A stretch of DNA of 64,000 bases, taken from assembly GCF_008639165.1 (NCBI RefSeq), contig NZ_CP029197.1, forward strand, positions 558,001 to 622,000, written 5' to 3'. The translations under genes and the position numbers were made by a program. Shown here piece by piece: positions 44,471 to 62,042 of the stretch; positions within the stretch are counted from its first letter, which is position 1, and each line of letters starts with the position of its first letter. Below the pieces are notes generated by a model. It saw only the letters and a program-made list of their open reading frames with translations, was not told the DNA's origin and did no database searches. This DNA is from Streptomyces venezuelae ATCC 10712. GTDB taxonomy: Bacteria > Actinomycetota > Actinomycetes > Streptomycetales > Streptomycetaceae.

Positions 44471-45058
44471 TCACTCCTCCAGGAGTCGGCGGGCCTGCGA
44501 CAGCAGGCGCAGCAGTTCGCTGCGGGAGGGGTCGTCGGCGCCGTCCGGGGCCGGCGGCCGGCGCGGCGCGTGGGTGGTGAGCACGTGCAGGGCGACGGCG
44601 GCCTGGCGGGCGAAGAGGCTCAGCAGGTCGAGCTCGGTCAGGCTGGAGCGGGCCTGCGGGGACGGGTCGAGGACCTCCAGGACACCGAGCACCCGGTCGC
44701 CGTGCAGCAGCGGGGCGGCCATCAGGGCGTTGGGGACGTAGCCGGTGGACTCGGCGACGTCCCGGTCGAAGGACGTGCTCTGGTGGAGGTCGTCGACCAC
44801 CATCGGCTCGCCCGAGGCGGCGACCCAGCCGGCGATCCCCCGGCCCGCCGGGAACCGGCGGCCCACCAGGAACTCCTGTCCCTGGCCGGAGACTGCCTCG
44901 AAGACCAGCTCGTCCGCCGTGGTCTCCAGGAGCAGGATGGAACTCGCCTCGGCGCCGAAGATGGCCCGCGCGGTGTCCACCACCGACTGCAGGAGCTCCG
45001 CCATCGCCGGATCGGGCAGGGGTACGGGGGACACGGCGGGGGCGATCGTCTGAGCCAT
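44471..45058 (-). CDS. GAF-domain protein
   Basis: This 195-aa protein is essentially one GAF domain (~20-165: AEASSILLLETTADELVF, GIAGWVAASGEPMVV, SLFARQAAVAL) and a short basic tail. It has no HTH, kinase or cyclase part, so it is a sensor or adaptor for a small ligand or redox signal. ATG 45058 follows GGAAGGGAAG. It is the last gene of the leftward run that begins with radical SAM enzyme 1 and lies 25 bp after the subtilase gene. A link to that operon is inferred from spacing only. Confidence 0.82.
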   Translation of the reverse strand: MAQTIAPAVSPVPLPDPAMAELLQSVVDTARAIFGAEASSILLLETTADELVFEAVSGQGQEFLVGRRFPAGRGIAGWVAASGEPMVVDDLHQSTSFDRDVAESTGYVPNALMAAPLLHGDRVLGVLEVLDPSPQARSSLTELDLLSLFARQAAVALHVLTTHAPRRPPAPDGADDPSRSELLRLLSQARRLLEE

Positions 45059-45083
45059 GGGGCTTCCCTTCCGGCGCCGGTCG

Positions 45084-45923
45084 TTACCGGCGTCCGTGGA
45101 CACGGACGTTGGCTGCGGACAGGTACAGGGCGTTCTTCAGCTGGAACGGCGTCAGCCGCGGGCGGCTCGACAGGAGGCGGGCGCAGAGCCCCGCGACGAA
45201 CGGGGTGGCGAAGCTGTTGCCGGAGCTGCGGATCGAGGTCCCCCCGAGCCAGGCGACCTGGACGCGCTGGCCCGGGGCGAAGAACTCCACCGGGGGCTCG
45301 GGGTTGTAGAGGTGGAGGTCCGGGTCGTCCTCCTGGTGGCTGCCGACGGAGATCACCGAGGAGAAGCGCCAGGGGAAGCTCTCCACATGGGTGTTGTGCG
45401 CGGAGGCCACGATGACCGTCTGCTGGAAGTAGGCCTCGTCGGCGAGCCGGCGCAGCTCCTCCACGAAGCGGTCGCGGCTGGTGGACAGGCTCAGGTTCAC
45501 CACGTCGAACCGTTGCCGCACGGCCCAGCGGATGCCTTCGAGGAGGACGTCGCCGCTGCCGGAGAACCGCTCGCCGAGCACCCGGATGCTGGAGAGTTCG
45601 CAGTCCGGGGCGGTCCGCCGGATGATCCCGGCGCAGGCGGTGCCGTGACCGCAGAAGTCGCCCTCGTCCGTCTCCTCGACGCGGATGCCGTCCTCGTCCT
45701 TGACGACCCGCCAGGACCGGTCGACGGGGCCGACCATGGGGTGGTCGCGTTCGACCCCGGAGTCGACCACGCAGACGCGGACGCCGCTTCCGGTGCCGCC
45801 GAGGAGTCCGCCCTCGGGCGGCTCGGGCGGCCGGTCGGCGTCCACGGGTACGTCGGCGGGGCCGCGGCCCCGCAGCCCCCAGGTGAGTCCGGGCGTCGGC
45901 GCCGGTCGCTGACCGGTGGTCAT
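45084..45923 (-). CDS. Intracellular S8-family (subtilisin-like) peptidase
   Basis: This 279-aa serine peptidase has the catalytic triad in VCVVDSGVERDHP (Asp), CGHGTACAGII (His) and SSGNSFATPFVAGL (Ser). It has no signal peptide and no prodomain, so it acts in the cytoplasm. The start overlaps the upstream cyclase/ATPase stop by ATGA. Because it lies downstream of a putative RiPP precursor and its radical SAM enzyme, it may remove a leader peptide; cytoplasmic processing of the cyclase/ATPase is an alternative. Neither can be proved from sequence. Confidence 0.87.
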   Translation of the reverse strand: MTTGQRPAPTPGLTWGLRGRGPADVPVDADRPPEPPEGGLLGGTGSGVRVCVVDSGVERDHPMVGPVDRSWRVVKDEDGIRVEETDEGDFCGHGTACAGIIRRTAPDCELSSIRVLGERFSGSGDVLLEGIRWAVRQRFDVVNLSLSTSRDRFVEELRRLADEAYFQQTVIVASAHNTHVESFPWRFSSVISVGSHQEDDPDLHLYNPEPPVEFFAPGQRVQVAWLGGTSIRSSGNSFATPFVAGLCARLLSSRPRLTPFQLKNALYLSAANVRVHGRR

Positions 45924-48900
45924 CGCGCTGTCTCCTCTCCGGCGCCGGTACGGCTGCCGGGTCCGGGGCCGGTACGGGCGCCGGCTCCGGTGGCGGTGGT
46001 GGTGGTGGTGGGTACGGCGGCGGGCGCGGGCCCGGGGTCCGCGCGGCGGGCGGCGCAGCGGGCGACCAGGGCGTCCGCCTGGCGGACGGCCGGGAGGTGG
46101 CCCTTGGCCCAGAAGTGCCGCCGGGCCCGGGCCGCCGACCCCGCCGCCTCGTCCGGGTGGCCCAGGGCGAGGGCGGTGCGGGCCAGGTCGAGGGCGGCGA
46201 GGCCCTGGACGATGGGCGAGTCGGTGCGGGCGGCGGTGGCGAGCGCCCGGGCGGCCAGCCGGGTGGCCGTCACGGCGTCGCCCCGCGCGGCGGCCACCCG
46301 GGCCCGCAGTCCGTCGAGGTCGGCGGACTCGGCGCGCGGCCTGGCCGGCTCCGCACGCTCGGCGTCCGGTGCGCCGAACGGTCCACCGGCCTGCTCCAGT
46401 TCGGCGAGGGTCGTACGGGCGGTCCGCCAGTCGCCGAGGTCGAGATGGACGCGGGTGGCATCGAGCAGGGCGCTGCGCAGGAGCGCCGTGGCGCCCAGCT
46501 CCCGGGCGGCGGCGGCCGCCCGCTCCAGGTGCGCGAGCGCCTCGTCCCGGCGGCCCGCGGGCTCGGCCACGGTCGCGGTGAAGATCGGCAGGAAGGCGTC
46601 GGCCTCGGCGTATCCGAGCCGCTTGGCGAGCTGCTCCGCCTCCGCGAGGCAGGCCAGGGCTCCCTCGCGGTCGTCGTGCAGGGCGAGGAGCACGGCCAGC
46701 GGGCAGTTGAGCGTCAGCCGTACGGCCCGGCGGCCGGGGCCCTGGTCGGCGAGGAGGGCCCGGCAGCGGTCGACGGCGTCGGCGACCGGCTGGGGCCCGC
46801 GCCAGAGCGAGACCCCCGTGGCGCCGAGGGCCGCGGCCCGCTCCGGCTCGGCGTCGGCGCGTACGGCGTGGTCGAGCGCCCGGGCCAGCAGGCGCTCCGC
46901 CGCGCGGTGCCGGCCCTGCTCCTGGGCGCGCTGGGCGAGCCGCAGGGCGGCCCGGGCCTGGCCGAGCTCGTCGCCGGCCGCCGCGAAGACCGGCAGCGTG
47001 GCGGCGGCGGCCTCGGCGGGCGACTCGTCCCTCCGACCACCCCCGGACCGGCCCGGCCCCGTGGCACGCGGCGTCCCCGCCGTCCGGCCGACCGAGGCGA
47101 GGCCCAGGCGGGCGTGGGCGGCCTCCACGGCGTCCTCGCCGTCCGGCGGGGTCTGGGCCAGCACCTCTTCGAGGAGGGACCTGCCGTCCGCGCCGCGCCC
47201 CAGGTCGAGCAGTGTCTGGCCGAGCCGGCGGCGGGTCGCCGTCCTGCCCGGTTCGCCCGTCGTGTACCGGGCCGCCGCCCGGTTCAGCAGGTCGGCGGCC
47301 CACACCGGGTCGGCGTGGGCCAGGGCGAGGCGTCCGGCCTCGGCGAGGGCGTCGGCGGCGCGGCGGCGCAGCCCGTCGGTGTGCGCGTCCTGGGCGCCCA
47401 GTTCCACCCGGTAGCGGTACGCCTCTTCGAGGTGGGCGCCGACCGCCGCGCTGCCCCGGGCGCGGACCGAGTCGAGCCGGGCCGCGCGCTCGTGCCGGTC
47501 GGCCCGGTCCTGCTTGGACTGGCTCGCGTGCACGACCTCCTGGATCAGGCCTCCGGCGAAGCGGAAAGCCGCTCCGTCCGGCCTGATCAGGCGGTGCCGG
47601 ACGAGCCGGTGGAGGGTGGCCGTGAGTTCGGCCGCGGTCCACGTCTCGGCGGGGGGACCGGCGAGCGCCGCGAGTTCTCCGGCGGTGAAGTCGCCGCCCA
47701 GGACCGACGCGAGCCCCAGGGCCCGCTGTTCGGGCGCGTCGAGGGCGTCGATCCGGGCGCCGATGAGCGCCTGGAGCGGCAGCGGGACGCTGTCGGTGTC
47801 GACGGGTTCCCCGGCGACGAGCAGCTGCTCCAGGTGCAGCGGGTTTCCGCCGACCCGGGCGAGGACCTCGGCGCCGAGCGGTGCGCCGTCGGCCGGCCGT
47901 CCCGTCAGTTCGGCCGCGAGGAGCTGCGCCTCGGCGTCGGTGAGGCCGCAGAGCGGCACGGAGCCCGCGGCGAGCTCGGGCCGGACGTCGAACAGCGGGG
48001 GGCGGGTGAGCAGGAGGATCAGGACGGCCGCGGTGTCCCCGAGGGCGCGCAGCAGCCGGTCGAGGGCGTCGAAGAGGGGCTGGGCTCCCCAGTGGCAGTC
48101 GTCGATCACCAGCACGACGGGCCGGGTCGCGGACAGTTCGGCGAGGACCTTGGCGAGCGCCGCGCAGGTGTCGGCGGGCGAGGGGTTGGGGGTGCCGTCC
48201 AGGAGCAGCCCCTGTTGAAGCAGTTCCAGTTCGGGCGACGGTACGAGGGTGGTCTCGGCGTTCAGCAGGTCGGCCACGGCGTCGGCGAGCGGGCCGAGGC
48301 TGGGTTGTTCGCCGAGGGCCCGGCAGCGCCCGACGCCGTGGCGCGGTGCGGTGGCGGTGGCCGGGGCGGACGCCCTGCGGATCCACTCCCGTACGAGCCG
48401 GGTCTTGCCCTGGCCGGCCTCCCCGCCCACCACCAGCCGCTCGACCCGGCGGGTCCGTGTGACCCGCTCCAACGCGGCGTCGATCAGGTCGAGTTCATGG
48501 CGGCGGCCGACGAAGCCGAGGTCGAAGCGGCGCAGTGCCTCGGGGCCGTCCTCCTCGTCGAGGCCGGTCAGCCGGTGGGCGACGACCCGGTCGGTCTTGC
48601 CCTTGAGCAGCAGGGGCCCGAGCTCGGTCGTGCGGACGCCGGGTCCGGCGGCGGCGAGGGTGTCGGGCCCGATGAGGATCTCCCCCGCGGCGGCGTTCTG
48701 TTCCAGGCGGGCGGCGACGTTGACCACTTCGCCGGAGACCATCGCCTGCCGGAGGGTGGCCGAACCCGTCACCGCCTGACCGGTGTTGATGCCGATGCGC
48801 ATCTCCAGACGGACCCCGACGGCCTCCTCGAGGCGGGCGTTGAACCCGGTGAGCGCCTCCCGCATGGCGAGTGCGGCCGAGGCGGCGCGCCGGGCGTCGT

Positions 48901-49207
48901 CCTCCCGTACCGTCGGCACACCGAAGACGGCCATCACGGCGTCCCCGATGAACTTCTCCACGGTGCCGCCCTGTTCCTCGATCCGCAGCCGCATCAGGTC
49001 GAACCAGCGGAGCGTCACCGAGCGCAGGGTCTCCGCGTCCAGCGCGCCGGAAAGCGCGGTGGAGCCCACGAGGTCGCAGAACAGGACGGTCACGACCTTC
49101 CGACCGGTGGGCCTTGCGGCGACCGGCCCGGGCGCGCACGGGCTGCCGCAGGACGGGCAGAACCGTGCGTCGGGCGGCAGGGCGCTCCGGCACGAGGCGC
49201 AGGGCAT
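45920..49207 (-). CDS. Zinc-ribbon/class III cyclase/AAA-ATPase/TPR regulator
   Basis: This 1,095-aa protein starts with a zinc ribbon (CASC...CPSC), then a class III adenylate/guanylate cyclase domain (~38-210: VTVLFCDLVGSTALSG, KFIGDAVMAVFG, RIGINTGQAVTGS), an AAA ATPase (Walker A GGEAGQGKTR ~265, Walker B VVLVIDDCHW) and a long TPR-like helical tail (~560-1095). Such multidomain proteins are common in actinobacteria as signal-responsive regulators. FCDLVGST keeps a metal-binding aspartate, so cyclase activity is possible. It lies only 40 bp after the small 92-aa gene and is coupled to the subtilase gene, suggesting it belongs to the same transcript. Confidence 0.87.
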   Translation of the reverse strand: MPCASCRSALPPDARFCPSCGSPCAPGPVAARPTGRKVVTVLFCDLVGSTALSGALDAETLRSVTLRWFDLMRLRIEEQGGTVEKFIGDAVMAVFGVPTVREDDARRAASAALAMREALTGFNARLEEAVGVRLEMRIGINTGQAVTGSATLRQAMVSGEVVNVAARLEQNAAAGEILIGPDTLAAAGPGVRTTELGPLLLKGKTDRVVAHRLTGLDEEDGPEALRRFDLGFVGRRHELDLIDAALERVTRTRRVERLVVGGEAGQGKTRLVREWIRRASAPATATAPRHGVGRCRALGEQPSLGPLADAVADLLNAETTLVPSPELELLQQGLLLDGTPNPSPADTCAALAKVLAELSATRPVVLVIDDCHWGAQPLFDALDRLLRALGDTAAVLILLLTRPPLFDVRPELAAGSVPLCGLTDAEAQLLAAELTGRPADGAPLGAEVLARVGGNPLHLEQLLVAGEPVDTDSVPLPLQALIGARIDALDAPEQRALGLASVLGGDFTAGELAALAGPPAETWTAAELTATLHRLVRHRLIRPDGAAFRFAGGLIQEVVHASQSKQDRADRHERAARLDSVRARGSAAVGAHLEEAYRYRVELGAQDAHTDGLRRRAADALAEAGRLALAHADPVWAADLLNRAAARYTTGEPGRTATRRRLGQTLLDLGRGADGRSLLEEVLAQTPPDGEDAVEAAHARLGLASVGRTAGTPRATGPGRSGGGRRDESPAEAAAATLPVFAAAGDELGQARAALRLAQRAQEQGRHRAAERLLARALDHAVRADAEPERAAALGATGVSLWRGPQPVADAVDRCRALLADQGPGRRAVRLTLNCPLAVLLALHDDREGALACLAEAEQLAKRLGYAEADAFLPIFTATVAEPAGRRDEALAHLERAAAAARELGATALLRSALLDATRVHLDLGDWRTARTTLAELEQAGGPFGAPDAERAEPARPRAESADLDGLRARVAAARGDAVTATRLAARALATAARTDSPIVQGLAALDLARTALALGHPDEAAGSAARARRHFWAKGHLPAVRQADALVARCAARRADPGPAPAAVPTTTTTATGAGARTGPGPGSRTGAGEETAR

Positions 49208-49247: not shown

Positions 49248-49526
49248 TCAGAAGAGAGCGCCGCCGGCGACGTCCGCGTGCGCCTGCACCTCGGGCGCGG
49301 CGGCGTCGAGCCGTCCCCTGATGTCGACGAGCAGGGCGAGCTCCTCCGGGGTCAGCGCGCGGACGACCTCCTGCTGCTCCTCGCTGAGGGCGTCGACGTC
49401 GAACCCGGCGGCGGCGAGCGCCTCCAGGGTGGGGGCCGGCGGTGTCCCGCCGGCCGGGGCGGTGCCGTACGGGGCGGGCGTGCCGCGCGGGGCGGTCGTC
49501 TCGTACGGGGTGCTGTCGTCGGTCAC
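49248..49526 (-). CDS. 92-aa putative RiPP precursor ('aroma-sacti cluster'-like)
   Basis: The N-terminal third is rich in Thr, Pro, Gly and Ala. The C-terminal part has a helical leader-like block (LEALAAAGFDVDALSEEQ, EVVRALTPEELALLVDI) and ends EVQAHADVAGGALF. The helical block resembles proteins that databases label 'aroma-sacti cluster domain', found beside radical SAM genes; this is from memory. There is no cysteine, so a sulfur-to-alpha-carbon bridge cannot form, and modification would have to use other residues. Start GTG 49526 has GGAGGACACCC upstream and overlaps the stop of the iron-protein gene. It may instead be a recognition or partner protein rather than a precursor. Confidence 0.7.
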   Translation of the reverse strand: MTDDSTPYETTAPRGTPAPYGTAPAGGTPPAPTLEALAAAGFDVDALSEEQQEVVRALTPEELALLVDIRGRLDAAAPEVQAHADVAGGALF

Positions 49527-50185
49527 GGGTGTCCTCCGGGGGTGGCGGCGAGGTCGAGGAAGAGCCGGGTGAGGAGGTTGGCGGTGTGCAGCGCGCTGAC
49601 GGAGACCGCCGTCTGCTGGGCGGGGGTCGGCGCGAGGGCGTCGAGCACCCGGTGCAGGTCGTCGAGGTGGCCGCCGTCGAGCTCGGCGTGTTCCCTGAGA
49701 GTGCGGAAGGCGCGGCCGGGCAGTCCGGTGACCTCGGTGAGACGGTCCGCGAGCCGGGGCCCGGGGGCGTTGCCCTCCAGGACGGCGATGTAGCCGAGCA
49801 GGGTCGCCGGGTGCTCGTGCTCGATCCGGTAGTACTGCGCCCCGGCGAGTTCGACGACGACGGGGTGCGGCACGGCGGCGGGGCCGGCTCCGGCGGCGGC
49901 CAGGTCGTCGAGCAGCCAGGCGTCGTGGTCGCGCTCCTCCTCGGCGTGGCGGACGTAGTACTCCGCGAGGTGCCGCGAGGCCGGGTCGTCGAGCTCGGCG
50001 CACCGCTCGGCGGCGCGTTCCAGGAGCGGCACCGAGGCGCGGACGAGCGGGTGCATGGCGGCCAGGTAGCGCACGTAGCGTTCGCGGAGGCCGTCGGGGC
50101 GCCAGAGGGCGGCGGTGGCGGCCCTCAGCACGGGCGTGGTGGGCGTGAGTTTGGTCCTGAGCGCGAGGGACGCGGTGGCGTTCAT
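49523..50185 (-). CDS. Haem-oxygenase-like iron-containing redox enzyme
   Basis: This 220-aa helical protein resembles the 'iron-containing redox enzyme'/haem-oxygenase-like diiron (HDO) family. Candidate metal ligands lie in two helices: HAEEERDHDAWLLDDL (~83-98) and REHAELDGGHLDDL (~165-178), with further histidines and glutamate in YYRIEHEHPATLLGY. HDO enzymes catalyse oxygen-dependent oxidations, for example C-C cleavage, N-oxygenation or desaturation. It overlaps the genes on both sides by four bases, so it is made in fixed ratio with radical SAM enzyme 1 and the 92-aa peptide, and likely acts on the same substrate. Confidence 0.82.
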   Translation of the reverse strand: MNATASLALRTKLTPTTPVLRAATAALWRPDGLRERYVRYLAAMHPLVRASVPLLERAAERCAELDDPASRHLAEYYVRHAEEERDHDAWLLDDLAAAGAGPAAVPHPVVVELAGAQYYRIEHEHPATLLGYIAVLEGNAPGPRLADRLTEVTGLPGRAFRTLREHAELDGGHLDDLHRVLDALAPTPAQQTAVSVSALHTANLLTRLFLDLAATPGGHP

Positions 50186-51363
50186 CGGCGGCTCCTCTCC
50201 TCTGCGGTGAGCGACGCGACGGCGGCGGGCGGGGCCGCTTCGCGCGCGTCGGCGGCGGGGTGGGCCCCGGCGGGCGGGTCGGCGGCGGCCGGCTTCCGTT
50301 CTCCGGTGGACTCGACCAGGTGCGCGTACCGGGCGCAGCCCATGCGGCGTACGAGGGCGGCGGGTCCGGCGGCGAGCTGCTGGTCCGTGCTGAGCCGGTC
50401 GAGGACGGCGCCGACCCGGCCTCCGGCGTCCCGGGCGGCGCCCGCGAGTACCTCGGGCCGGTCGGCGAGCGCGTGACAGCTCCGGCAGTATCCGGCCGGG
50501 GCGGGCCCGGTGCCGTACCGGGCGTGCATCCGCTGCGGGCCGACGGCGCGCAGCATCCGCAGCACCGGGGAGCCGAGGGAGCGTGCGCGTACGGTCTGCC
50601 AGTCGTCCTCGGCGATGTGCCCGAGCCGCAGGTGCGGGGGGACGGGACGGCGGTCCACCGTCCACTGGTTGCAGCAGGCGGCCACGGTCCCGTCGAAGGT
50701 GACGACGGGCCAGGCGGCGAGCGCGCAGGGCGTCACCGAGGTGCCGTCGGGGCCGGCCGGCGTGGCCCGGGCGAGCCCGGTGCCGCGGCCGACCGGCCGG
50801 ACCTCGTTCACCAGCATCGGCATGCCGGGGCCGAAGGCGCGGTGGACGTCGGCGACGGCCTCCGCGAGGTACGGGTCGTCCGGTCCCGACCCGGTGAGGT
50901 GGATGCTGGCGGGGACTCCGGCGTCGAGCACGGCCCGCAGGGCGCGCAGGACGTCCGCGCGCGGGACCTCGCGCTCGTGGTGGACGTCCAGGCTGGCCGA
51001 GAAGTGGTCGAGGGCCGTGACCGTTCGCATGATCCGGTCGGGGACGCGGCCGCCGCGGGCGAAGAACATGCCGCTGAGCAGGGCCACCCTGGATCCCCTG
51101 GCGCGGGCGAGGCGGGCCGCGCGGGCGGCGAGCTCCGGCAGCAGCAGCGGTTCGCCGCCGGTGAGCATGACCACCTCGGGGCGGTCCTGGGGGCCGAACG
51201 AGCCGATGAAGCCGAGGAGTCGCGCCGGATCGGGCGCCCCGGCGGCCGTCGGGGAGGAGCCGGTGGAGCAGTGCGCGCAGCTCATGGGGCAGCGGCGGGT
51301 GAGCGCCACCAGGAGACCGCCGCAGGGCACCGGGCGCAGGCCGATGAGCTCCGCCAGTTCCAT
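50182..51363 (-). CDS. Radical SAM enzyme 1 (putative peptide-modifying)
   Basis: This 393-aa enzyme has the radical SAM cluster motif RRCPMSCAHC (Cys25, Cys29, Cys32), GGEPLLLPE for SAM binding, and C-terminal cysteines (VAACCNQW, YCRSCHAL) that could hold an auxiliary cluster as in SPASM/Twitch enzymes. No B12 domain is seen. The C-terminal ~60 residues are Ala/Pro-rich. ATG 51363 follows TCAGGAGGACAG. It opens the leftward operon and is followed directly by the HDO and 92-aa genes. It probably modifies the small peptide encoded beside it, or the 39-aa peptide encoded on the other side of the shared promoter region. Confidence 0.85.
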   Translation of the reverse strand: MELAELIGLRPVPCGGLLVALTRRCPMSCAHCSTGSSPTAAGAPDPARLLGFIGSFGPQDRPEVVMLTGGEPLLLPELAARAARLARARGSRVALLSGMFFARGGRVPDRIMRTVTALDHFSASLDVHHEREVPRADVLRALRAVLDAGVPASIHLTGSGPDDPYLAEAVADVHRAFGPGMPMLVNEVRPVGRGTGLARATPAGPDGTSVTPCALAAWPVVTFDGTVAACCNQWTVDRRPVPPHLRLGHIAEDDWQTVRARSLGSPVLRMLRAVGPQRMHARYGTGPAPAGYCRSCHALADRPEVLAGAARDAGGRVGAVLDRLSTDQQLAAGPAALVRRMGCARYAHLVESTGERKPAAADPPAGAHPAADAREAAPPAAVASLTAEERSRR

Positions 51364-51426
51364 GTCTGTCCTCCTGACGCGCGCGGAGGGTCCCCCGCTT
51401 CCCCCGGATCGTGTCGCCGGGCGGCA

Positions 51427-51450
51427 GGCTTTCGGTTCACGAACGCCTGG
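51427..51450 (-). promoter_or_regulatory. Shared activator/promoter element, leftward copy
   Basis: On the minus strand CCAGGCGTTC (51450-51441), four bases and ACCG occur 77 bp before the start of radical SAM enzyme 1. The identical arrangement, in the same orientation relative to its gene, precedes the 39-aa peptide gene. It is probably the binding site of a common activator such as one of the nearby SARP or LAL regulators. Confidence 0.6.
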
Positions 51451-51579
51451 CGATCGGTAAATCACCGGGTCAGGTGGGGTGCGAGGACATGCGGGGCAGG
51501 GCGGGCGGGGGCTCGCCCGCACGGTTCCGGGTCCGTCCCGCGCCCCCGTCGTCGCCGTTTACCGGCGCCGAACCGGCGA

Positions 51580-51597
51580 CCAGGCGTTCCCATACCG
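51580..51597 (+). promoter_or_regulatory. Shared activator/promoter element, rightward copy
   Basis: CCAGGCGTTC followed after four bases by ACCG occurs 66 bp before the 39-aa peptide start. It matches the leftward copy at all 14 fixed positions and with the same spacer length, which is unlikely by chance in two facing promoters. Confidence 0.6.
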
Positions 51598-51655
51598 CGG
51601 GTTCGTACGTTTTTCCCAGCCGGCGCAGCGACGCCGTCCAACGAGGAGGACGAAC

Positions 51656-51775
51656 ATGCCCGAGAACACGAACCCGAAGCCGATCGAGGACGAGGACATC
51701 GAGGTCGTGGCGCACGGGGAGGACGAGGAGGCCGAGGCCGGCTGCATCGTCAACAACTCCAGCGACATCTCCTGA
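51656..51775 (+). CDS. 39-aa putative RiPP precursor peptide
   Basis: The peptide has a polar start (MPENTNPKPI), a strongly acidic leader-like middle (about 11 Asp/Glu between residues 11 and 28) and a different C-terminal end, GCIVNNSSDIS, with a single cysteine at position 30. This split into acidic leader and short, Ser/Asn/Cys-containing core is typical of RiPP precursors. A strong AGGAGGA lies five to six bases before ATG 51656, and the gene heads an operon with a glycosyltransferase, radical SAM enzyme, exporter and peptidase. I know no named RiPP class with this core. It may form one Cys thioether crosslink and be glycosylated; both are inferences. Confidence 0.75.
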   Translation: MPENTNPKPIEDEDIEVVAHGEDEEAEAGCIVNNSSDIS

Positions 51776-51962: not shown

Positions 51963-53159
51963 GTGAACATCCTGCTCTGCCCGCTCAGCGACGGCGGCTA
52001 TCTCTACCCGGCGATCGCGGCCGGCCGGGAACTGCGGCGCCGCGGCCACCACGTCAGCGTGCTCGCCAGGTCGTCCGCCGCGCCCGTCGTGGCGGAGTCC
52101 GGCCTGCCGTGCCTGCCGGCCGAGGACTTCGGCGGCCGCCGGGCGTTCTCCGCCACCTGGTGGGGGACGACGGGCGCGGCCCAGTACCGGGCGGTCGTAC
52201 GCGCGGCCCGGGAGACGCGGGCCGAGCTGCTCGTCACCTCGGTGCTGTGCAACGGCGCGCTGCTCGCGGCCGAGGCGTTGGACCTTCCGGTGGTCGTGGT
52301 CGGCCTCTCCGTCCATCTGTGGGACTACCGCGCCGGCGGCGACGGCGAGCCGCACCTGGGCAGGACCCGGGAGAGCCGGACCTTGGACTGCCGGGGCATC
52401 CTCGCCGCCACCCGGGAGGAGGTCGGCCTGGCCGGGCGCGCCTCCCGGTGGGACGACCCGCTCCTCGGCGACGCCCTGCTGCTCAGGGGTGACCCGGCGC
52501 TGGAGTACCCCGGCGGCGAACTCCCCGAGCGCGTACGGTTCGTGGGCCCCATGGACTGGGAACCGGCCCCCGGACGGGGCGAGTCGGAAGCCGTCGCCGA
52601 CCATCTGGCGCGGACCGGCAAGCCCGTCGTCTACGTCCACCTCGGCCGCTTCTTCGGCGGCAGGAGCCTGTGGCCACGGCTCAACGAGGCCTTCACCGGC
52701 GGGCCGTTCCAGGCCGTGGTCGAGCAGGGCAGGTCCACCGAGCCGCAGCCCGGACCGGACGCCGACATCCTGCTCGTACGCAAACCGTGGATGGGTCCGC
52801 TCGTCGATCTGGCCGGACTGGTAGTGGCCAACGGCACCTCGGCCCCCGTGCTCGCCGCCCTGCTGCGCGGCCGCCCCCTTGCGCTCTCGCCGAACGGGTC
52901 CGAGCAGCCGCTGCTCACCGGCGCCTGCGTCCGGGCCGGCGTGGCCGTACGCGACCCGAAGACCCCGTCCGCGGACCTGTCGGCGCTGCTGGAGTCGGCG
53001 TGGCACGACGAAGGGCTGCGGACCCGAGCCCGCGCGCTCGGCGACAGGCTGGCCGCGGCGGGCGGCGCGGCCCGCGCGGCCGACATTGTCGAGCGGGTGG
53101 CTGTGGCATCCGCGATCCCGAAGGAGGACCATGAGTACGCGATCAGTCGGCCTCGATGA
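51963..53159 (+). CDS. GT-B glycosyltransferase (MGT/UGT-like)
   Basis: This ~398-aa protein has a GT-B fold: the N-terminal domain begins NILLCPLSDGGYLYPAIAAG (acceptor side), and the C-terminal domain has VYVHLGRFFGG and a nucleotide-sugar region, VVANGTSAPVLAALLRGRPL...PNGSEQPLL. It resembles macrolide/flavonoid-type glycosyltransferases rather than sugar-polymer enzymes. The usual HGG motif is replaced by NGTS. It starts at GTG 51963 and overlaps the next gene by 29 bp. In this operon it most likely puts a sugar on the 39-aa peptide core (Ser, Asn or Cys). No sugar-biosynthesis genes are nearby, so the donor would be a common NDP-sugar. Confidence 0.8.
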   Translation: MNILLCPLSDGGYLYPAIAAGRELRRRGHHVSVLARSSAAPVVAESGLPCLPAEDFGGRRAFSATWWGTTGAAQYRAVVRAARETRAELLVTSVLCNGALLAAEALDLPVVVVGLSVHLWDYRAGGDGEPHLGRTRESRTLDCRGILAATREEVGLAGRASRWDDPLLGDALLLRGDPALEYPGGELPERVRFVGPMDWEPAPGRGESEAVADHLARTGKPVVYVHLGRFFGGRSLWPRLNEAFTGGPFQAVVEQGRSTEPQPGPDADILLVRKPWMGPLVDLAGLVVANGTSAPVLAALLRGRPLALSPNGSEQPLLTGACVRAGVAVRDPKTPSADLSALLESAWHDEGLRTRARALGDRLAAAGGAARAADIVERVAVASAIPKEDHEYAISRPR

Positions 53160-54102
53160 GGCCGTGGCGAGTCTGTCCGTGGGTGCGCGGCACTGGATAG
53201 CGCGGCGCGCGGGGTACCTCGACTCGCCCGAGGGTCACACGGACCTGCCGGTGACCCCCCGTGTCAAGGCCCTCCTGCAGCTCGCGCTGCTCCGCCGCTA
53301 CTGGGAGAAGACCGTGCCCGGCGAGACGGCCCTCGGCGAGGCGACCGCGATCGTCGAACGGGCTTGGCGGCGGCCGGACTTCCCCCGGCTGCTGACCCTC
53401 GACCGGCGGTACGCGCGGGAGTTCGAGCTGATGTACGCGGGCCTGACGCCCGCCGGCAGCACGACCGACGCACCGCGCCAGGTCCTGGCCCGGCTGGCGG
53501 CGGACGGCTATCTGGCACCGCGCCGGAAGGCCCCTTACCTCCACCTGGAGGCCAGGTTCTACGCCGATCTCGCGGGCGCGGAGCACACGTTCGCCTCGTA
53601 CGAGGAGCTGTACGCCGCGAGCCTGCTGGCCCGGGCGGCGACGCTGCCGGTGGCCGATCTCGACGTCTGCGTGGTCACGCACACCGTCTTCTACCTCAGT
53701 GACTTCGGCTTCCGGGACCCCGGACTCGGCGAGGAGGCGCGCGAGCAGGCGCTGCGGGTCGTGGAGCGGCTCACGCACCACTGCCTGGGGCTCGGCGAGT
53801 GGGACCTCGTCGGCAAGCTCGTCCTGGCCCAGTACTGCCTGGGCGCCGATCCGCTGAGCACCTCGTCCGGCGCGGCCGGGATACGGATGCTCGCGGAGGT
53901 CCAGGCGCCCGACGGCGCGATCCCGGGCCGGTCCGTCGTGCGGCGCGCCCCGGCGGACGCGACGCCCGTGGACTACTTCAGGAAGTCCTACCAGGCGACC
54001 CTGGTCACGGCGCTCGCGACGCTGATCATCGGGAACGGCCGGCAGCCCGGCGGCGGCGCGACCGCCGCCGCCGGAGCGACGACAGTACGGGAGTCACGGT
54101 GA
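53131..54102 (+). CDS. Helical DUF6895-like protein 1 (function unknown)
   Basis: This 323-aa, mostly alpha-helical protein has no known catalytic motif. It is a paralogue of the product of 55361-56323: both share HTxFYLxDFGxxDP, LVLAQxxLGxDPLSTxSGAA, GAIPGRS and a C-terminal YxxTLVTALxxxI. I tentatively place both in DUF6895. ATG 53131 has a perfect AAGGAGGACC site inside the glycosyltransferase gene, and its stop overlaps the radical SAM gene by GTGA. The repeated helical pairs may form a toroid that holds a peptide or a lipid-like substrate. A scaffold role for radical SAM enzyme 2 is possible. Confidence 0.75.
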   Translation: MSTRSVGLDEAVASLSVGARHWIARRAGYLDSPEGHTDLPVTPRVKALLQLALLRRYWEKTVPGETALGEATAIVERAWRRPDFPRLLTLDRRYAREFELMYAGLTPAGSTTDAPRQVLARLAADGYLAPRRKAPYLHLEARFYADLAGAEHTFASYEELYAASLLARAATLPVADLDVCVVTHTVFYLSDFGFRDPGLGEEAREQALRVVERLTHHCLGLGEWDLVGKLVLAQYCLGADPLSTSSGAAGIRMLAEVQAPDGAIPGRSVVRRAPADATPVDYFRKSYQATLVTALATLIIGNGRQPGGGATAAAGATTVRESR

Positions 54103-55358
54103 GCATCGACCAGGCGGCGCCCGTCACAGCGCCCACGGCCCGGCCCGACCGGGAGACCGGCCCCGACGCCACGCCCCGGCCCGACCTCGCGGCCTCCGGC
54201 GCGCGGCTTCTCCAGGGTGAGCGGAACTGGTGGTTCCTCGGCCCGGGCGGGGTGGCCCGGCTCGGCTCCCGGCACGTCACGGCCGACGGGGAGCTGCGCC
54301 CCGAGGCCGAGCAACGGCTGCGCGACAGCGGCATGTTCACCCCCGCTCCGGTCCGCGCCTACGCGCTGACCGTCCTCACCAGCACCCACTGCAACCTGGG
54401 CTGCGGCTACTGCTTCCAGAACACCGCGCAGGACCTGGCCGGCGGCAGCCGGCCGCCCCGGATCGCCCGGACCCGCCTCAGCTCCGGCACGATCACCTCG
54501 ATCCTCGGTTTCACCGAACGGCAGATGGCCGCCGCCGGCCTGGAGAAGCTCCGCATCCTCCTCTTCGGCGGAGAGCCGCTGCTCAACCCGCGCGGCTGCC
54601 TCGAACTGCTCGAACGGGCCGCGGACATCGCGCCGACCTCCGCCTGGATGATCTCCAACGCCACCCTGCTCACCCCGTCCCTCGCGCGACGGCTGCACGA
54701 GCGCGGGCTGACGTCCGTCCAGGTCACCTTCGACGGCGACCGTGACGACCACGACCGGATCAGGATCGGCCGGGCGGACGGCAGCGGCACCTTCGACAAG
54801 ATCGTCCGGAACATCGTGAAGGCCTCCGAGGTCACGCCGCTCCGCTGGACGCTCCGGGTGAACGTCTCCCAGGAGACCTTCCACGGGGTCGACGCGCTGA
54901 TCGACCGGCTCGCGGCCGCCCTCGACCCCGCCCGGTGCTCGCTGTACTTCGCCCGGGTCGGCGACGTGGGCGTCGGATACGCCAACAGCCTGCTGCACAC
55001 CGGCGAACTCTCGGCCGCCTTCACCCGGTGGCAGCGCCGGGCCCTCGGCCTCGGCTTCACCGTCAGCCGCCCCGGCGGCAGGAAGACCTGCGTCACCTGC
55101 GGCCACGCCGACGGCCGGTACGGCGCGGTGGTGAGCGCGGACGGGACGCTGGCGAGCTGCTGGGAGACCGCCGGCAAACCCGACTGGGAGGTCGGCACGG
55201 TCACCGACGGCTACCGGCCGGGCGCGGGGACCGGCGACCGCTGGATCGCCTGCCAGGACCTGTACAGCTACGACGAGGACGCGCGGACGCTCGCCCGGTT
55301 CCGCGACACCGTCGACACGGCCCTGCTGGACCATCTCCAGGAGACGGGGCGCCTGTAG
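54099..55358 (+). CDS. Radical SAM enzyme 2 with SPASM/Twitch-like tail (peptide maturase)
   Basis: This 419-aa enzyme has a ~95-residue N-terminal extension that could bind a leader peptide, then the radical SAM motif THCNLGCGYCF (Cys98, Cys102, Cys105), FGGEPLLNP, and a C-terminal cysteine set (CVTCGHADGRYG, LASCWETAG, WIACQDLY) consistent with an auxiliary iron-sulfur cluster of SPASM or Twitch type. CxxxCxYCF and YGxxVSADGTLxxCW are typical of RiPP maturases that make thioether or C-C crosslinks. Start is GTG 54099, coupled to the upstream DUF gene. It probably crosslinks the 39-aa peptide. Confidence 0.87.
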   Translation: MSIDQAAPVTAPTARPDRETGPDATPRPDLAASGARLLQGERNWWFLGPGGVARLGSRHVTADGELRPEAEQRLRDSGMFTPAPVRAYALTVLTSTHCNLGCGYCFQNTAQDLAGGSRPPRIARTRLSSGTITSILGFTERQMAAAGLEKLRILLFGGEPLLNPRGCLELLERAADIAPTSAWMISNATLLTPSLARRLHERGLTSVQVTFDGDRDDHDRIRIGRADGSGTFDKIVRNIVKASEVTPLRWTLRVNVSQETFHGVDALIDRLAAALDPARCSLYFARVGDVGVGYANSLLHTGELSAAFTRWQRRALGLGFTVSRPGGRKTCVTCGHADGRYGAVVSADGTLASCWETAGKPDWEVGTVTDGYRPGAGTGDRWIACQDLYSYDEDARTLARFRDTVDTALLDHLQETGRL

Positions 55359-55360
55359 CC

Positions 55361-56323
55361 ATGCCCTCACCCCTGGAGCAGCTCTCCGCCCGCGCCCTCG
55401 ACTGGCTGGGCGCGCACCTGGACTTCTTCGACCCGTTCTCGTCGAGCGGGCGGTCGGCCCCCCACGGGAAGGCGAAGGCCGCACTGGAGCTGGCGCTGCT
55501 CTGCCATCGCGCGGCGCGCCCGGACGCCGGCCCCGATCCGCTCGGCGGGGCGACGGCACTCGTCAGGAAGCTCTGGCAGGACCCGGACTTCCCCGGGCTG
55601 TTCGACGAGCTGCCCGCGTACGCCTCCACGTACGGGCTGATCTACGCCGCGCTCGCCCCCGACGGGATCGACGACACGCTGTGCCGGGACCGACTCGCCC
55701 TGCTGCCCCCCGAGTTCCTCGCGCCCGAGGGAAAGTCGCCGTACCAGCGCGTCGAGATCCGCTACTACGCGGAGAAAGCGGGCGTCCGCCACGGCATCGA
55801 GCCGTACGCCGCACTCGTCCCGCAGAGCCCGCTCGTCGCCTTCCGCGCGGCCGGCTCCGGAGCGGCGCACACCGAGGCGGGCTCGCGCGGCGGGGCACCG
55901 GGCCCGGACGACGGGGCGCCGCTCGCCACCCCGCGGGCGTACGCGCTCACCCACACCGCCTTCTACCTCGGCGACTTCGGCCGTACCGACCCCCGGCTCG
56001 ACGCGGACACCCTGGAGCGCGCCCGGGAGCTGGTCCGCGTGACCCTGCTGCACTGCGTCGAGCACGACCGGTGGGACCTGGCCGCCGAGCTCGTCCTCGC
56101 CCAGTTCATCCTCGGGACCGACCCGCTGAGCACCCCCTCGGGCGCGGCGGCCGTGGACTGCCTGCTGCGGGCCCAGCGGTCCGACGGGGCGATCCCGGGG
56201 CGGAGCGCCGAGCTCGAGGCCCCGCCGTCCGCGTCGGCCGGTGAGTTCTTCGGGAAGGCGTACCACACGACCCTGGTGACCGCCCTCATGGCCTCGATCG
56301 TCGCGTCGCCGAGGCCGTCATGA
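55361..56323 (+). CDS. Helical DUF6895-like protein 2 (function unknown)
   Basis: This 320-aa protein is the paralogue of the product of 53131-54102, sharing HTAFYLGDFGRTDP, LVLAQFILGTDPLSTPSGAA and the GAIPGRS and TTLVTAL blocks. It differs by an N-terminal acidic/aromatic segment (ALDWLGAHLDFFDPF) and a Gly/Ala insert near residue 165. It starts two bases after the radical SAM stop and overlaps the MFS start by ATGA. The two copies flanking one radical SAM gene suggest a heterodimer or two substrates, but nothing in the sequence assigns a reaction. Confidence 0.75.
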   Translation: MPSPLEQLSARALDWLGAHLDFFDPFSSSGRSAPHGKAKAALELALLCHRAARPDAGPDPLGGATALVRKLWQDPDFPGLFDELPAYASTYGLIYAALAPDGIDDTLCRDRLALLPPEFLAPEGKSPYQRVEIRYYAEKAGVRHGIEPYAALVPQSPLVAFRAAGSGAAHTEAGSRGGAPGPDDGAPLATPRAYALTHTAFYLGDFGRTDPRLDADTLERARELVRVTLLHCVEHDRWDLAAELVLAQFILGTDPLSTPSGAAAVDCLLRAQRSDGAIPGRSAELEAPPSASAGEFFGKAYHTTLVTALMASIVASPRPS

Positions 56324-57777
56324 CACGGACAGGGGCATCGCGTTTCACGCTGATCAACCGCGACTACACCCGGCTCTGGTTCGGCCAGGCCGTCTCGTCC
56401 GTCGGCGACGCCGTCTTCAGCACCACCCTGGTGCTCTGGGTGGCGACCGTGCTCGCGAAGGACGAGTCCTGGGCGCCGATGGCCGTCAGCGGCGTCCTGA
56501 TGGCCTCCAGCGCCGCCGTCCTGGTCATCGGCCCGCTTGCCGGGGTCTTCGTCGACCGCTGGGACAAGGTCGCGACGCTGCTCCGCACCGAAGTCGTCCG
56601 CGGCGCGCTCGTGGCACTGCTCACCGTCGTCTCCCTGCTGCCCACCGACGCCCTCCCGAAGGGGGTCTGGCTGGGCGTCGTGTACGTGACGGTGCTCCTC
56701 CTGCACGCGGCGGGCCAGTTCTTCTCCCCGGCGCGCTTCGCGATCCTCGCCGACCTGGTGAAGGGGGAGGCCGACCGCGCCCGGGCGGCCGGCATCGGCC
56801 AGGCGACCGGTGAGACGGCCTGGATCATCGGCCCGCCGCTCGCCGCGCCGCTGCTCTTCGCGGCGGGCCTGCAGTGGGCGCTGCTCTTCAACGCGCTCTC
56901 GTACGCGGTGTCGTACATCGCCATCCGGTCGATCGACCTGCGTCCGGCGCCCCCGAAGGCCGCCGCCGCGGGACGTTCCGACAAACAACAGGCGAGCCTG
57001 CGGCGCGAGTTCGTGGCCGGTGTGCGGTTCTTCGCCCGCAGCAGGTTCCTGGTCGCGCTGCTCCTGCTCGCCGTCATCGGGCAGTTCGGCATCGGCGCGC
57101 TGAGCACCCTCAACGTCTTCTTCACCACCGACAACCTCCACGCCGACGCCCATCTCTACGGCTACATCGGCATGGCCATGGGAGTGGGCGGCATCACCGG
57201 CGCGCTGTGCGGCGGGCGGGTCGTGCAGTGGCTCGGAGCGCGCCGCAGCACCTGGATCAGCCTCCTGGTGAGCGGTGTGCTGCTGGTCGCCTACTCACGT
57301 CAGACCGGCTTCCTGGGCGGTGTCGCCCTGCTCTTCGTCTTCACCGTCCCGCTGACCGTCCTCAACACCGCGATGGCGCCGCTGCTGCTCGCGGCGGCGC
57401 CGTCCGAGTTCCGGGGCCGGGTGATGGCCGTGTTCTACCCGGTGACGAAACTGGCGTCGATGCTCGCCGCCGTCCTGTCCGGCTGGCTGGCCGGTTCCGT
57501 GCTGACGGACGTGGCGGGCTCGGTCGCCGGCGTCCGGTTCGGACCCATCGACACGATCTTCGCCGCCTCCGGGGTGATCGTCGTGCTGGCCGGCGTCTTC
57601 GCCTGGCTCGCCCTGCCGGGCACCCGGCCCGACGAGGCGCCGGGCGACGAGGCACCGGGTGACGAGGCACCGGGTGACGAGGCGCCGGACGACGAGCCCG
57701 CCCGGACGACGGCGACGAAGGCCGCGGCTCCCGTTCCGCCGGTCCGCGACCGCGCCGAACCGCCCGCGACGGACTGA
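56320..57777 (+). CDS. MFS exporter of the RiPP-like operon
   Basis: This 485-aa transporter has about twelve membrane segments and the motifs of the MFS_3/antibiotic-efflux group (LWFGQAVSSVGDAVFSTTLVL, FFSPARFAILADLV, SEFRGRVMAVF). It is translationally coupled to the DUF protein upstream. The C-terminal cytoplasmic tail carries four near-identical DEAPG units encoded by 15-bp repeats, then a charged end. It likely exports the mature glycopeptide or gives self-resistance. Confidence 0.87.
   Translation: MTRTGASRFTLINRDYTRLWFGQAVSSVGDAVFSTTLVLWVATVLAKDESWAPMAVSGVLMASSAAVLVIGPLAGVFVDRWDKVATLLRTEVVRGALVALLTVVSLLPTDALPKGVWLGVVYVTVLLLHAAGQFFSPARFAILADLVKGEADRARAAGIGQATGETAWIIGPPLAAPLLFAAGLQWALLFNALSYAVSYIAIRSIDLRPAPPKAAAAGRSDKQQASLRREFVAGVRFFARSRFLVALLLLAVIGQFGIGALSTLNVFFTTDNLHADAHLYGYIGMAMGVGGITGALCGGRVVQWLGARRSTWISLLVSGVLLVAYSRQTGFLGGVALLFVFTVPLTVLNTAMAPLLLAAAPSEFRGRVMAVFYPVTKLASMLAAVLSGWLAGSVLTDVAGSVAGVRFGPIDTIFAASGVIVVLAGVFAWLALPGTRPDEAPGDEAPGDEAPGDEAPDDEPARTTATKAAAPVPPVRDRAEPPATD
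57631..57690. repeat. Four 15-bp repeats in the MFS tail
   Basis: Four consecutive units of the form GACGAGGCrCCGGGy encode DEAPG repeats at the C-terminal end of the exporter. All stay in frame; the last ends in GAC instead of GGY. Confidence 0.85.
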
Positions 57778-57840: not shown

Positions 57841-59985
57841 GTGACCACCGACGCCCGACCGACCCGGCGCCCGTACCCGCACGCGGAGCGGCAGGACGTC
57901 GTCCAGGAACTCCACGGGCTGCGCGTCCCCGACCCCTACCGCTGGCTCGAGGACGCCGAGGACGCCGCCACGCTCCGCTGGAGCGCCGAACAGCAGGAGC
58001 TCTACGCGTCGGAGCGCGCCTCGTGGGACGACCTGGAGCGGTGGCGGAGCGAGGTGGCGGCGCTCGGCGCCGTGGACCGCGTCTGGTCGCCCAAGGTCCG
58101 CGGCGACCGGGTCTTCTGGCTGCGGCAGGACGCCGGGCAGGAGCACCCGGTGCTCGTCGTCGCGGAGGCCGGGTCACCGGACTCCACACCGCGGGTGCTG
58201 CTCGACCCCAGTGTCCTCGACCCCTCGGGGCGGACCGTGCTCGACGCCTGGGAGCCGTCCGTGGAGGGCGGTCTGCTGGCCTGCCAGGTGTCACGGGACG
58301 GCACGGAGGACTCGCTGCTCCGGGTGATCGACGTGGCCACCGGGGAGACCGTCGACGGGCCGATCGACCGGGTGCGGAAGTCCTCGGTCGGCTGGCTGCC
58401 GGGCGGCGCGGCGTTCTACTACGTCCGGCACCTTGACCCCCGGCTGAACCCCGGCGAGGAGCGCTACCACCGGAGGGTGTGCCTGCACCGGGTGGGCACG
58501 GCGCCCGACGCGGACGCGGTGGTCTTCGGCGAGGGCCGGGACAAGACGCAGTTCTACAGCGTCTCCGTGACCGCGGACGGCCGCTGGCTCGGCGTCACGG
58601 CCACGCTCGGCACCGGGCGCGGCACCGACCTCCACCTCGCGGACCTGACCGCCGCGCCGCTCGACCGTCCGCTCCTGCGGCCGGTCCAGGAGGGCATGGA
58701 CGCCGCCACCCGGCTGCACGCGGTGCCGGGCACGGGACCGCAGGACCCGGTGTGGCTGCGGACCGACCGCGACGCGGCGCGCGGCCGCGTCGTCGCCTGC
58801 CGGCCGTCCGAGCTCCACCTGGGTCCCGCCGCCTGGCGCGAGGTGATCCCGGAGCGGCCCGGCGCGGTCCTGACCCATCTCGTCGTGCTGTCCGGCCCGG
58901 AGCTGAAGCACCCGCTCGGCCTGGCCGCCTGGACCCGGGACACGGTGGCCGAGCTGACCGTGCACGACCTGGTCGAGGGCCGGCAGGTGGCCACGGTGCC
59001 GCTGCCCGGCACCGGCGCGGTCGGCGACTTCTCGGCCGGCGCGCCCGGCGGTCACGAGGCCTGGTTCGCGTACACCGACTTCGTCACGCCGGTACGCGTG
59101 CTCCGCTTCGACGCGCGGACGCTCCGCGTGACGGGCTGGGAGCGCGACGCCCGGCAGGCGCCCGCCGTGGCCGGTGCCGTGACCCGCCAGGTCGCCTTCC
59201 CCTCGCGGGACGGCACGACGGTCCGCATGTTCGTGATCTCCCCCGCCGGACGCCCGGACGTGCCGCGACCCGCGCTGCTCACCGGATACGGCGGCTTCGG
59301 CCGCACGATGTCGCCGCGCTACCGGGCGCTGGTGCTCGCGTGGGTGAGGGCGGGCGGCGTGTTCGCCTGGGCGGGGCTGCGCGGCGGCGGCGAGGAGGGC
59401 GAGGCCTGGCACCGGGCCGGCAGCGGGCGGCACAAGCAGAACACCTTCGACGACTTCGCCGCCGCGGCCGACCGGCTGCTCGACGAGGGCTGGACCGAGC
59501 CCGGCCGGATCGCGATCATGGGCGGCTCCAACGGCGGCCTCCTCGTCGGCGCGGCCCTCACGCAGCGGCCCGCGGCCTACGCCGCCGTGGTGTGCATGTC
59601 CCCGCTCCTGGACATGGTGCGGTACGAACTGTCCGGCCTCGGGCCCAGCTGGACGCCCGAGTACGGCAGTGCGCAGGACCCGGCCGCGCTGCGGGTGCTG
59701 CTGGGCTACTCCCCGTACCACCGCGTCACACCGGGCACCGCGTACCCGGCGGTGCTCCTGACCGCCGCGGACGGCGACACCAGGACCGATCCGCTGCACG
59801 CCCGCAAGATGTGCGCCGCGCTCCAGCACGCCACGACCGGCCCGGGACCGATCCTGCTGCGCCTCGAACACGGCGTCGGCCACAGCGACCGGGCGGCCTC
59901 CCGCGCGGCGGCCCTGCAGGCCGAGTGCCTGACGTTCCTGGCCCAGCGGGTGGGCCTGCCCGCGCCGGAACGGCCGGGGACGTAG
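57841..59985 (+). CDS. Prolyl oligopeptidase-family serine peptidase (S9A)
   Basis: This 714-aa enzyme has the S9A layout: a short N-terminal segment (PYRWLED, typical of prolyl oligopeptidases), a seven-bladed propeller (~80-440) and a C-terminal alpha/beta hydrolase with GGSNGGLL (Ser563), DGDTRTD and HGVGHSD supplying the triad. No signal peptide is seen. POP enzymes cut small peptides after proline; FlaP-type POPs are known leader peptidases of class III lanthipeptides. The 39-aa peptide has prolines only at positions 2, 7 and 9, so a POP could trim its leader but not release the core directly. Start GTG 57841 follows ACGAGGGAG. Confidence 0.9.
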
Positions 59986-61929: not shown

Positions 61930-61990
61930 CGAGCAAACCTCCGTATGGCGACGGGAGTCGGTCGGTCCGTTCCATGATCCGCCGCGGTGG

Positions 61991-62012
61991 TCCGGCACAC
62001 ATCGGTGCCGGA
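61991..62012. promoter_or_regulatory. Inverted repeat upstream of SARP 2
   Basis: TCCGGCAC and GTGCCGGA form an 8-bp perfect inverted repeat around ACATCG, about 60 bp upstream of the SARP 2 start. It could be an operator or an extra terminator of the gene to the right. Confidence 0.35.
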
Positions 62013-62042
62013 CCCGCACAGTCGCGCCGCCGCCGGCCGCGT

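Follow-up and report, generated by a model that had tools for sequence, protein, structure and literature searches.

Divergent SARP-type operator arrays and the probable co-regulation of a constant gene cassette and a RiPP operon in Streptomyces venezuelae

A promoter word within a four-unit array

Two operons, each with a radical SAM enzyme gene and a small peptide gene, diverge from a short intergenic region in Streptomyces venezuelae ATCC 10712, and the question they raise is whether one activator reads both as a single regulated system. In the 64,000-nucleotide stretch of DNA analysed here (the window), the exact word CCAGGCGTTC-N4-ACCG lies at 51580-51597 on the forward strand and at 51433-51450 on the reverse strand, with ORF starts 77 bp (+) and 66 bp (-) past it and with the same orientation to its own gene, just as the original prediction had placed it. 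The word is a mere fragment, comprising two units of a longer four-unit element. Each promoter contains four NNNNCCG-type heptamers separated by 4-nt spacers at an exact 11-bp period, followed after 8 nt by a -10 hexamer predicted from the sequence:

51558-51597, forward strand: SARP-type array, TTTACCG (51558) gcgc CGAACCG (51569) gcga CCAGGCG (51580) ttcc CATACCG (51591)
51606-51611, forward strand: -10-like hexamer TACGTT, 8 nt past the last forward unit (spacer cgggttcg)
51422-51461, reverse strand: SARP-type array, TTTACCG (51461) atcg CCAGGCG (51450) ttcg TGAACCG (51439) aaag CCTGCCG (51428)
51408-51413, reverse strand: -10-like hexamer CACGAT, 8 nt past the last reverse unit (spacer cccggcga)

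The word covers units 3-4 of the forward array and units 2-3 of the reverse array; because CCAGGCG is unit 3 in one and unit 2 in the other, the distances of 77 and 66 bp differ by one repeat unit. The 14 identical positions from which a common activator had been argued are thus a real match, but one between differing repeat registers and not one fixed word.

A genome-wide scan, proposed along with the original prediction, uncovered no crowd of unrelated promoters: the exact word occurs three times in the whole 8.22-Mb genome, in the two arrays and once inside a coding ORF, a position that rules out the third copy as a target promoter. Matches with one mismatch number 28, versus 40 for a reversed control, which is chance level, so that the non-random part is the two exact copies 147 bp apart. 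A single fixed word is ruled out as the motif by this chance-level count and by its clade specificity, the family-wide unit being CGAACCG. A 39-nt degenerate array pattern, designed from the same two sites that it recovers, finds both arrays and no other genomic site at up to three mismatches (control, 0), and a relaxed pattern matches twice in the window versus 0.11 expected by shuffling. A position weight matrix trained only on reverse-type arrays nevertheless gives the forward array 28.0 bits; the reverse array scores 29.1 bits. No wider regulon was found in the genome with the degenerate pattern at three mismatches, and weaker sites may remain. Register shift apart, no array above 14.0 bits was found elsewhere in the window that could serve SARP autoregulation through the same box.

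A fixed cassette and exchangeable partner operons

The reverse array precedes a cassette of six genes:

50182-51363, reverse strand: rSAM1, radical SAM enzyme
49523-50185, reverse strand: heme-oxygenase-like (HOLE) fold protein with invariant E/H/D residues, from an AlphaFold model and PDB matches
49248-49526, reverse strand: aroma-sacti-domain peptide, C-terminus PEVQAHADVAGGALF, no Cys
45920-49207, reverse strand: adenylate/guanylate cyclase-AAA-TPR protein
45084-45920, reverse strand: S8 subtilase, triad D53/H92/S236
44471-45103, reverse strand: GAF-domain protein

All six genes are present in the 67 of 67 homologous loci with enough downstream DNA. The HOLE protein is modelled with a pLDDT of 93.8 and has 3dde, UndA and a TenA homologue as its best PDB matches, and the catalytic triad of the S8 protein is invariant at the 97% level. 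In 79 of 79 cassette peptides the C-terminal region carries EVxAH (DVQAH in one) and a near-invariant AG(G/A)(A/T)LF tail. This AGGALF-type C-terminus is unlike a diversifying RiPP core, and the sactipeptide label does not apply to the window peptide, since it has no Cys. Given both features, the reverse peptide may fall outside the ordinary RiPP products, whereas the forward peptide is a RiPP-like precursor.

The forward operon reads as follows:

51656-51775, forward strand: precursor peptide MPENTNPKPIEDEDIEVVAHGEDEEAEAGCIVNNSSDIS, 39 aa
51792-51861, forward strand: strong hairpin between the precursor and glycosyltransferase genes, z -4.95
51963-53159, forward strand: MGT-like glycosyltransferase
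53131-54102, forward strand: DUF6895 protein
54099-55358, forward strand: rSAM2, radical SAM/SPASM-like RiPP maturase (RiPP maturase model matches below cutoff)
55361-56323, forward strand: second DUF6895 protein
56320-57777, forward strand: MFS exporter
57841-59985, forward strand: S9 prolyl oligopeptidase

Its predicted layout is that of a RiPP operon, with a short precursor that has an acidic leader, rSAM2 beside it, an MFS exporter and an S9 peptidase. The hairpin is a probable attenuator or stabiliser and suggests attenuation that favours precursor expression. The two DUF6895 paralogues stand on either side of the rSAM2 gene, and three loci (L049, L051 and L053) have the forward peptide twice, with the second, diverged copy placed immediately before the S9 peptidase gene.

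The partner operon that faces the cassette varies between homologous loci: it is of the window type, a class III lanthipeptide type (with the LanKC-like assignment made by eye) and repeat-bearing multicore types. In L081, L084, L129 and L116, the multicore precursors have cores separated by DVVAH/EVKAH/DVIAH-type motifs. Elsewhere in the window, an NRPS-type cluster (1307-25520) encodes condensation, adenylation and methyltransferase proteins, a thioesterase, an ABC transporter, a chorismate-binding enzyme and a B12-binding radical SAM protein; a second SARP gene lies beside it at the left edge (C1:557358-559250).

Conservation of the arrays

The arrays were compared across 80 homologous reverse operons from Streptomyces, Kitasatospora, Streptacidiphilus, Actinacidiphila, Wenjunlia, an Amycolatopsis MAG and others. 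Within 170 bp upstream, a four-unit ACCG score of at least 13/16 is reached at period 11 in 66 of the 80 loci and at other periods from 7 to 15 in 0-2 of them. An array of at least 14 bits precedes 73 of the 80 operons, compared with about 0.001 expected per upstream region under the unit model; some of the same arrays had served to train this model, whereas the period test is independent of training. An autocorrelation analysis free of any motif model shows maxima at lags 11 and 22. When 41 non-redundant arrays were aligned by their repeats alone in a first model, before the -10 offset was counted, 95% had a hexamer with A in second and T in sixth place at offset 8, a share that was at most 5% at every other offset between 0 and 19. 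In some divergent lanthipeptide arrays the -10 is lost in the best-scoring register, and four loci with a nearby SARP gene (L079, L097, L125 and L130) have no array of at least 14 bits, two of them scoring 13.3.

On the forward side, a sample of 393 genomes from the genus contains the peptide in 16, and array and 8-nt spacing are kept in 16/16 forward promoters and in 11/11 syntenic reverse promoters. Three genomes have the forward operon apart from the locus with the SARP gene and the reverse operon, at a separation of 4.3 Mb in one (G065) and on different contigs in the others (G245 and G114). Their forward arrays are intact, and no SARP homologue was found in the 20-kb loci around these unlinked operons. 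Retention of the array at distant operons that have no local SARP gene supports one trans-acting activator. In the same genomes the reverse operon faces a lanthipeptide-like operon that also bears repeats; in the corresponding loci (L056, L057 and L058) this partner consists of an LDLQ precursor, an MFS gene and a LanKC-like ORF of about 870 aa, with its own repeats.

The candidate activator

A SARP site is made of direct repeats with a spacing of 11 or 22 bp, and 8 bp separate its 3' repeat from the -10; SARPs dock sigma region 4, replacing a good -35 (PMC10936776); the monomers bind heptamers with 4-nt spacers cooperatively (PMC5930380). Both promoters of the window have direct heptameric repeats (four each), the 11/22-bp spacing and the 8 bp between 3' repeat and -10, and a SARP gene lies in the cluster. 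Judged from its sequence, the promoter element is a further instance of this known kind of operator. Two regulator genes lie beyond the forward operon:

60046-62019, reverse strand: large SARP (winged helix, BTAD and NB-ARC), the proposed activator, from domain and AfsR matches
62138-63982, reverse strand: LuxR-type regulator with TPR, a conserved neighbour of the SARP gene

The large SARP has an OmpR-like domain followed by BTAD (Trans_reg_C 1e-6, BTAD 5e-34, NB-ARC 5e-12) and matches AfsR at 5e-64. Residues mapped by hand show that the backbone contacts of AfsR (W74/P79/S91/R94) are kept and that its base contacts T88 and R92 are replaced, which is in line with a heptamer unlike that of AfsR; because these base-contacting residues differ, the heptamer specificity of the protein cannot be predicted. 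A SARP homologue is nearby in 59 and a LuxR homologue in 30 of the 67 loci with enough downstream DNA, both counts being too low where the genes fall beyond the fetched flank.

These observations make it very probable that the paired divergent arrays are SARP operators through which the fixed cassette and the forward RiPP operon are co-regulated. We infer that the SARP encoded at 60046-62019 binds both arrays. Its monomers would occupy successive heptamers next to one another, and the bound protein would make up for the lack of a -35 and bring RNA polymerase to both promoters. The cassette (rSAM1, HOLE, aroma-sacti, cyclase-AAA-TPR, S8 and GAF) would thereby be switched on together with the forward operon (precursor, glycosyltransferase, rSAM2, the two DUF6895 proteins, MFS and S9). 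One activator and one regulated system, as originally proposed, are thus strongly supported, because both arrays are conserved across species, a SARP gene is linked and the unlinked forward operons keep their array.

It is improbable that the arrays are instead read by another OmpR-like winged-helix regulator, either PhoP or the global SARP AfsR, in response to a global signal. We count for this reading that the complement of the unit, CGGTTCA/CGGTTCG, loosely resembles a GTTCACC-type half-site. PhoP and AfsR are alike in using direct repeats of 11 bp, and at certain promoters the two overlap (PMC10972967), but the linkage of a SARP homologue in 59/67 loci and the 8-nt spacing to the -10, which is a SARP rule, speak for the linked protein, and a scan of 8.2 Mb that at three mismatches yields just two array sites indicates that there is no global regulon. 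Slightly less probable still is direct activation by the linked LuxR-type protein or by another SARP, with the linked SARP acting elsewhere. SARP-like proteins are indeed many in this genome (17 matches), and the LuxR gene is conserved beside that of the SARP; LuxR proteins, however, bind inverted repeats, whereas the array is made of direct heptamers, and the LuxR homologue was detected in about half as many loci as the SARP (30/67 versus 59/67). A chance resemblance or a recent duplication of promoter DNA with no regulatory function, which the chance-level one-mismatch count of the original word might favour, is extremely improbable given an array conserved in 16 species and a period-11 specificity and 8-nt spacing kept in divergent genera.

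Are the two operons also biochemically coupled?

Co-regulation by the linked SARP leaves a second question, that of a biochemical link between the operons, for which the argument is that precursors of both carry [ED]VxAH. The motif is common to the partner precursors and the cassette peptide, and a peptide of the [ED][VI]xAH type follows 55 of the 62 further arrays at these loci. This count is the less biased one, as the list of partner types was itself selected on [ED][VI]xAH; the background for the count, 13% of small ORFs, has both these precursors and the cassette peptides still in it. In most lanthipeptide precursors EVxAH lies upstream of the LxLQ motif and does not adjoin the core. A search of the available literature for EVxAH sequences and aroma-sacti found nothing relevant.

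Co-occurrence in genomes was counted through family NF045560. The aroma-sacti family is above cutoff in 63 of the 393 genomes overall, in 16/16 genomes with the forward peptide and in 20/20 with clear lanthipeptide-type matches (tables compared by hand). All 33 genomes with either precursor type carry it, including the three unlinked cases, for which (63/393) cubed gives about 0.004 when phylogeny is ignored; the linked cases cannot be counted as independent of it.

The motif suggests shared processing of both peptides, perhaps by the S8 peptidase of the cassette. With less confidence than is given to co-regulation, the operons would thus also be coupled through a shared factor that recognises [ED]VxAH, most simply this peptidase. 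More broadly, the constant cassette under the same SARP operator could serve interchangeable RiPP classes, either by [ED]VxAH processing (S8) or by supplying an IAGGALF-core signal or cofactor that they need, a proposal that we hold tentatively, at somewhat below even chances. Similarly plausible, and likewise short of probable, is that one activator controls unrelated products and that EVxAH is convergent or a leftover of leader ancestry, with no shared processing; this contests the biochemical coupling only and not the operator. Each operon does encode a separate radical SAM enzyme and a separate peptidase (S8 in one, S9 in the other), but the occurrence of EVxAH in 79/79 cassette peptides and in several partner types with unrelated cores, together with the aroma-sacti family in all 33 genomes, is harder to square with unrelated products.

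Implications and comparison with known systems

Less ordinary than the operator is that a constant cassette combines with partners that can be exchanged and that have a motif in common with it. A single cassette is matched here with changing peptide products, and the operator sequence lets RiPP operons of a SARP regulon be found even when they are unlinked. If EVxAH is a shared recognition site, it would offer a class-independent handle to find and activate silent actinomycete RiPPs.

Known SARP operators (those of DnrI and ActII-ORF4, the afs box of AfsR and the PimR operator) have the same direct heptamers, 4-nt spacers and 11-bp period, likewise with the 3' repeat 8 bp from the -10 and a linked SARP gene. 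They contain two or three units, whereas the arrays described here contain four, with the unit CGAACCG; also unlike them, two divergent operators lie within about 190 bp and the same array occurs at unlinked RiPP operons. AfsR-type large SARPs share the winged helix, BTAD and NB-ARC with the 60046-62019 protein, which differs in its length of 657 aa, in that a C-terminal TPR domain was not found, in the replacement of T88/R92 and in its place in RiPP loci. Among the aroma-sacti/StsA-related families (NF045560 and NF045559), the cassette peptide gives a match of 6e-23 to NF045560, and its gene adjoins a radical SAM gene, although the window peptide lacks Cys, has a C-terminus that is near-invariant and falls far below the NF045559 cutoff. 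Class III lanthipeptide clusters (LDLQ precursor, large LanKC-like gene and MFS) are the partner type in many homologous loci; the window partner is not of this class, and the lanthipeptide partner precursors carry EVEAH and a SARP array in addition.
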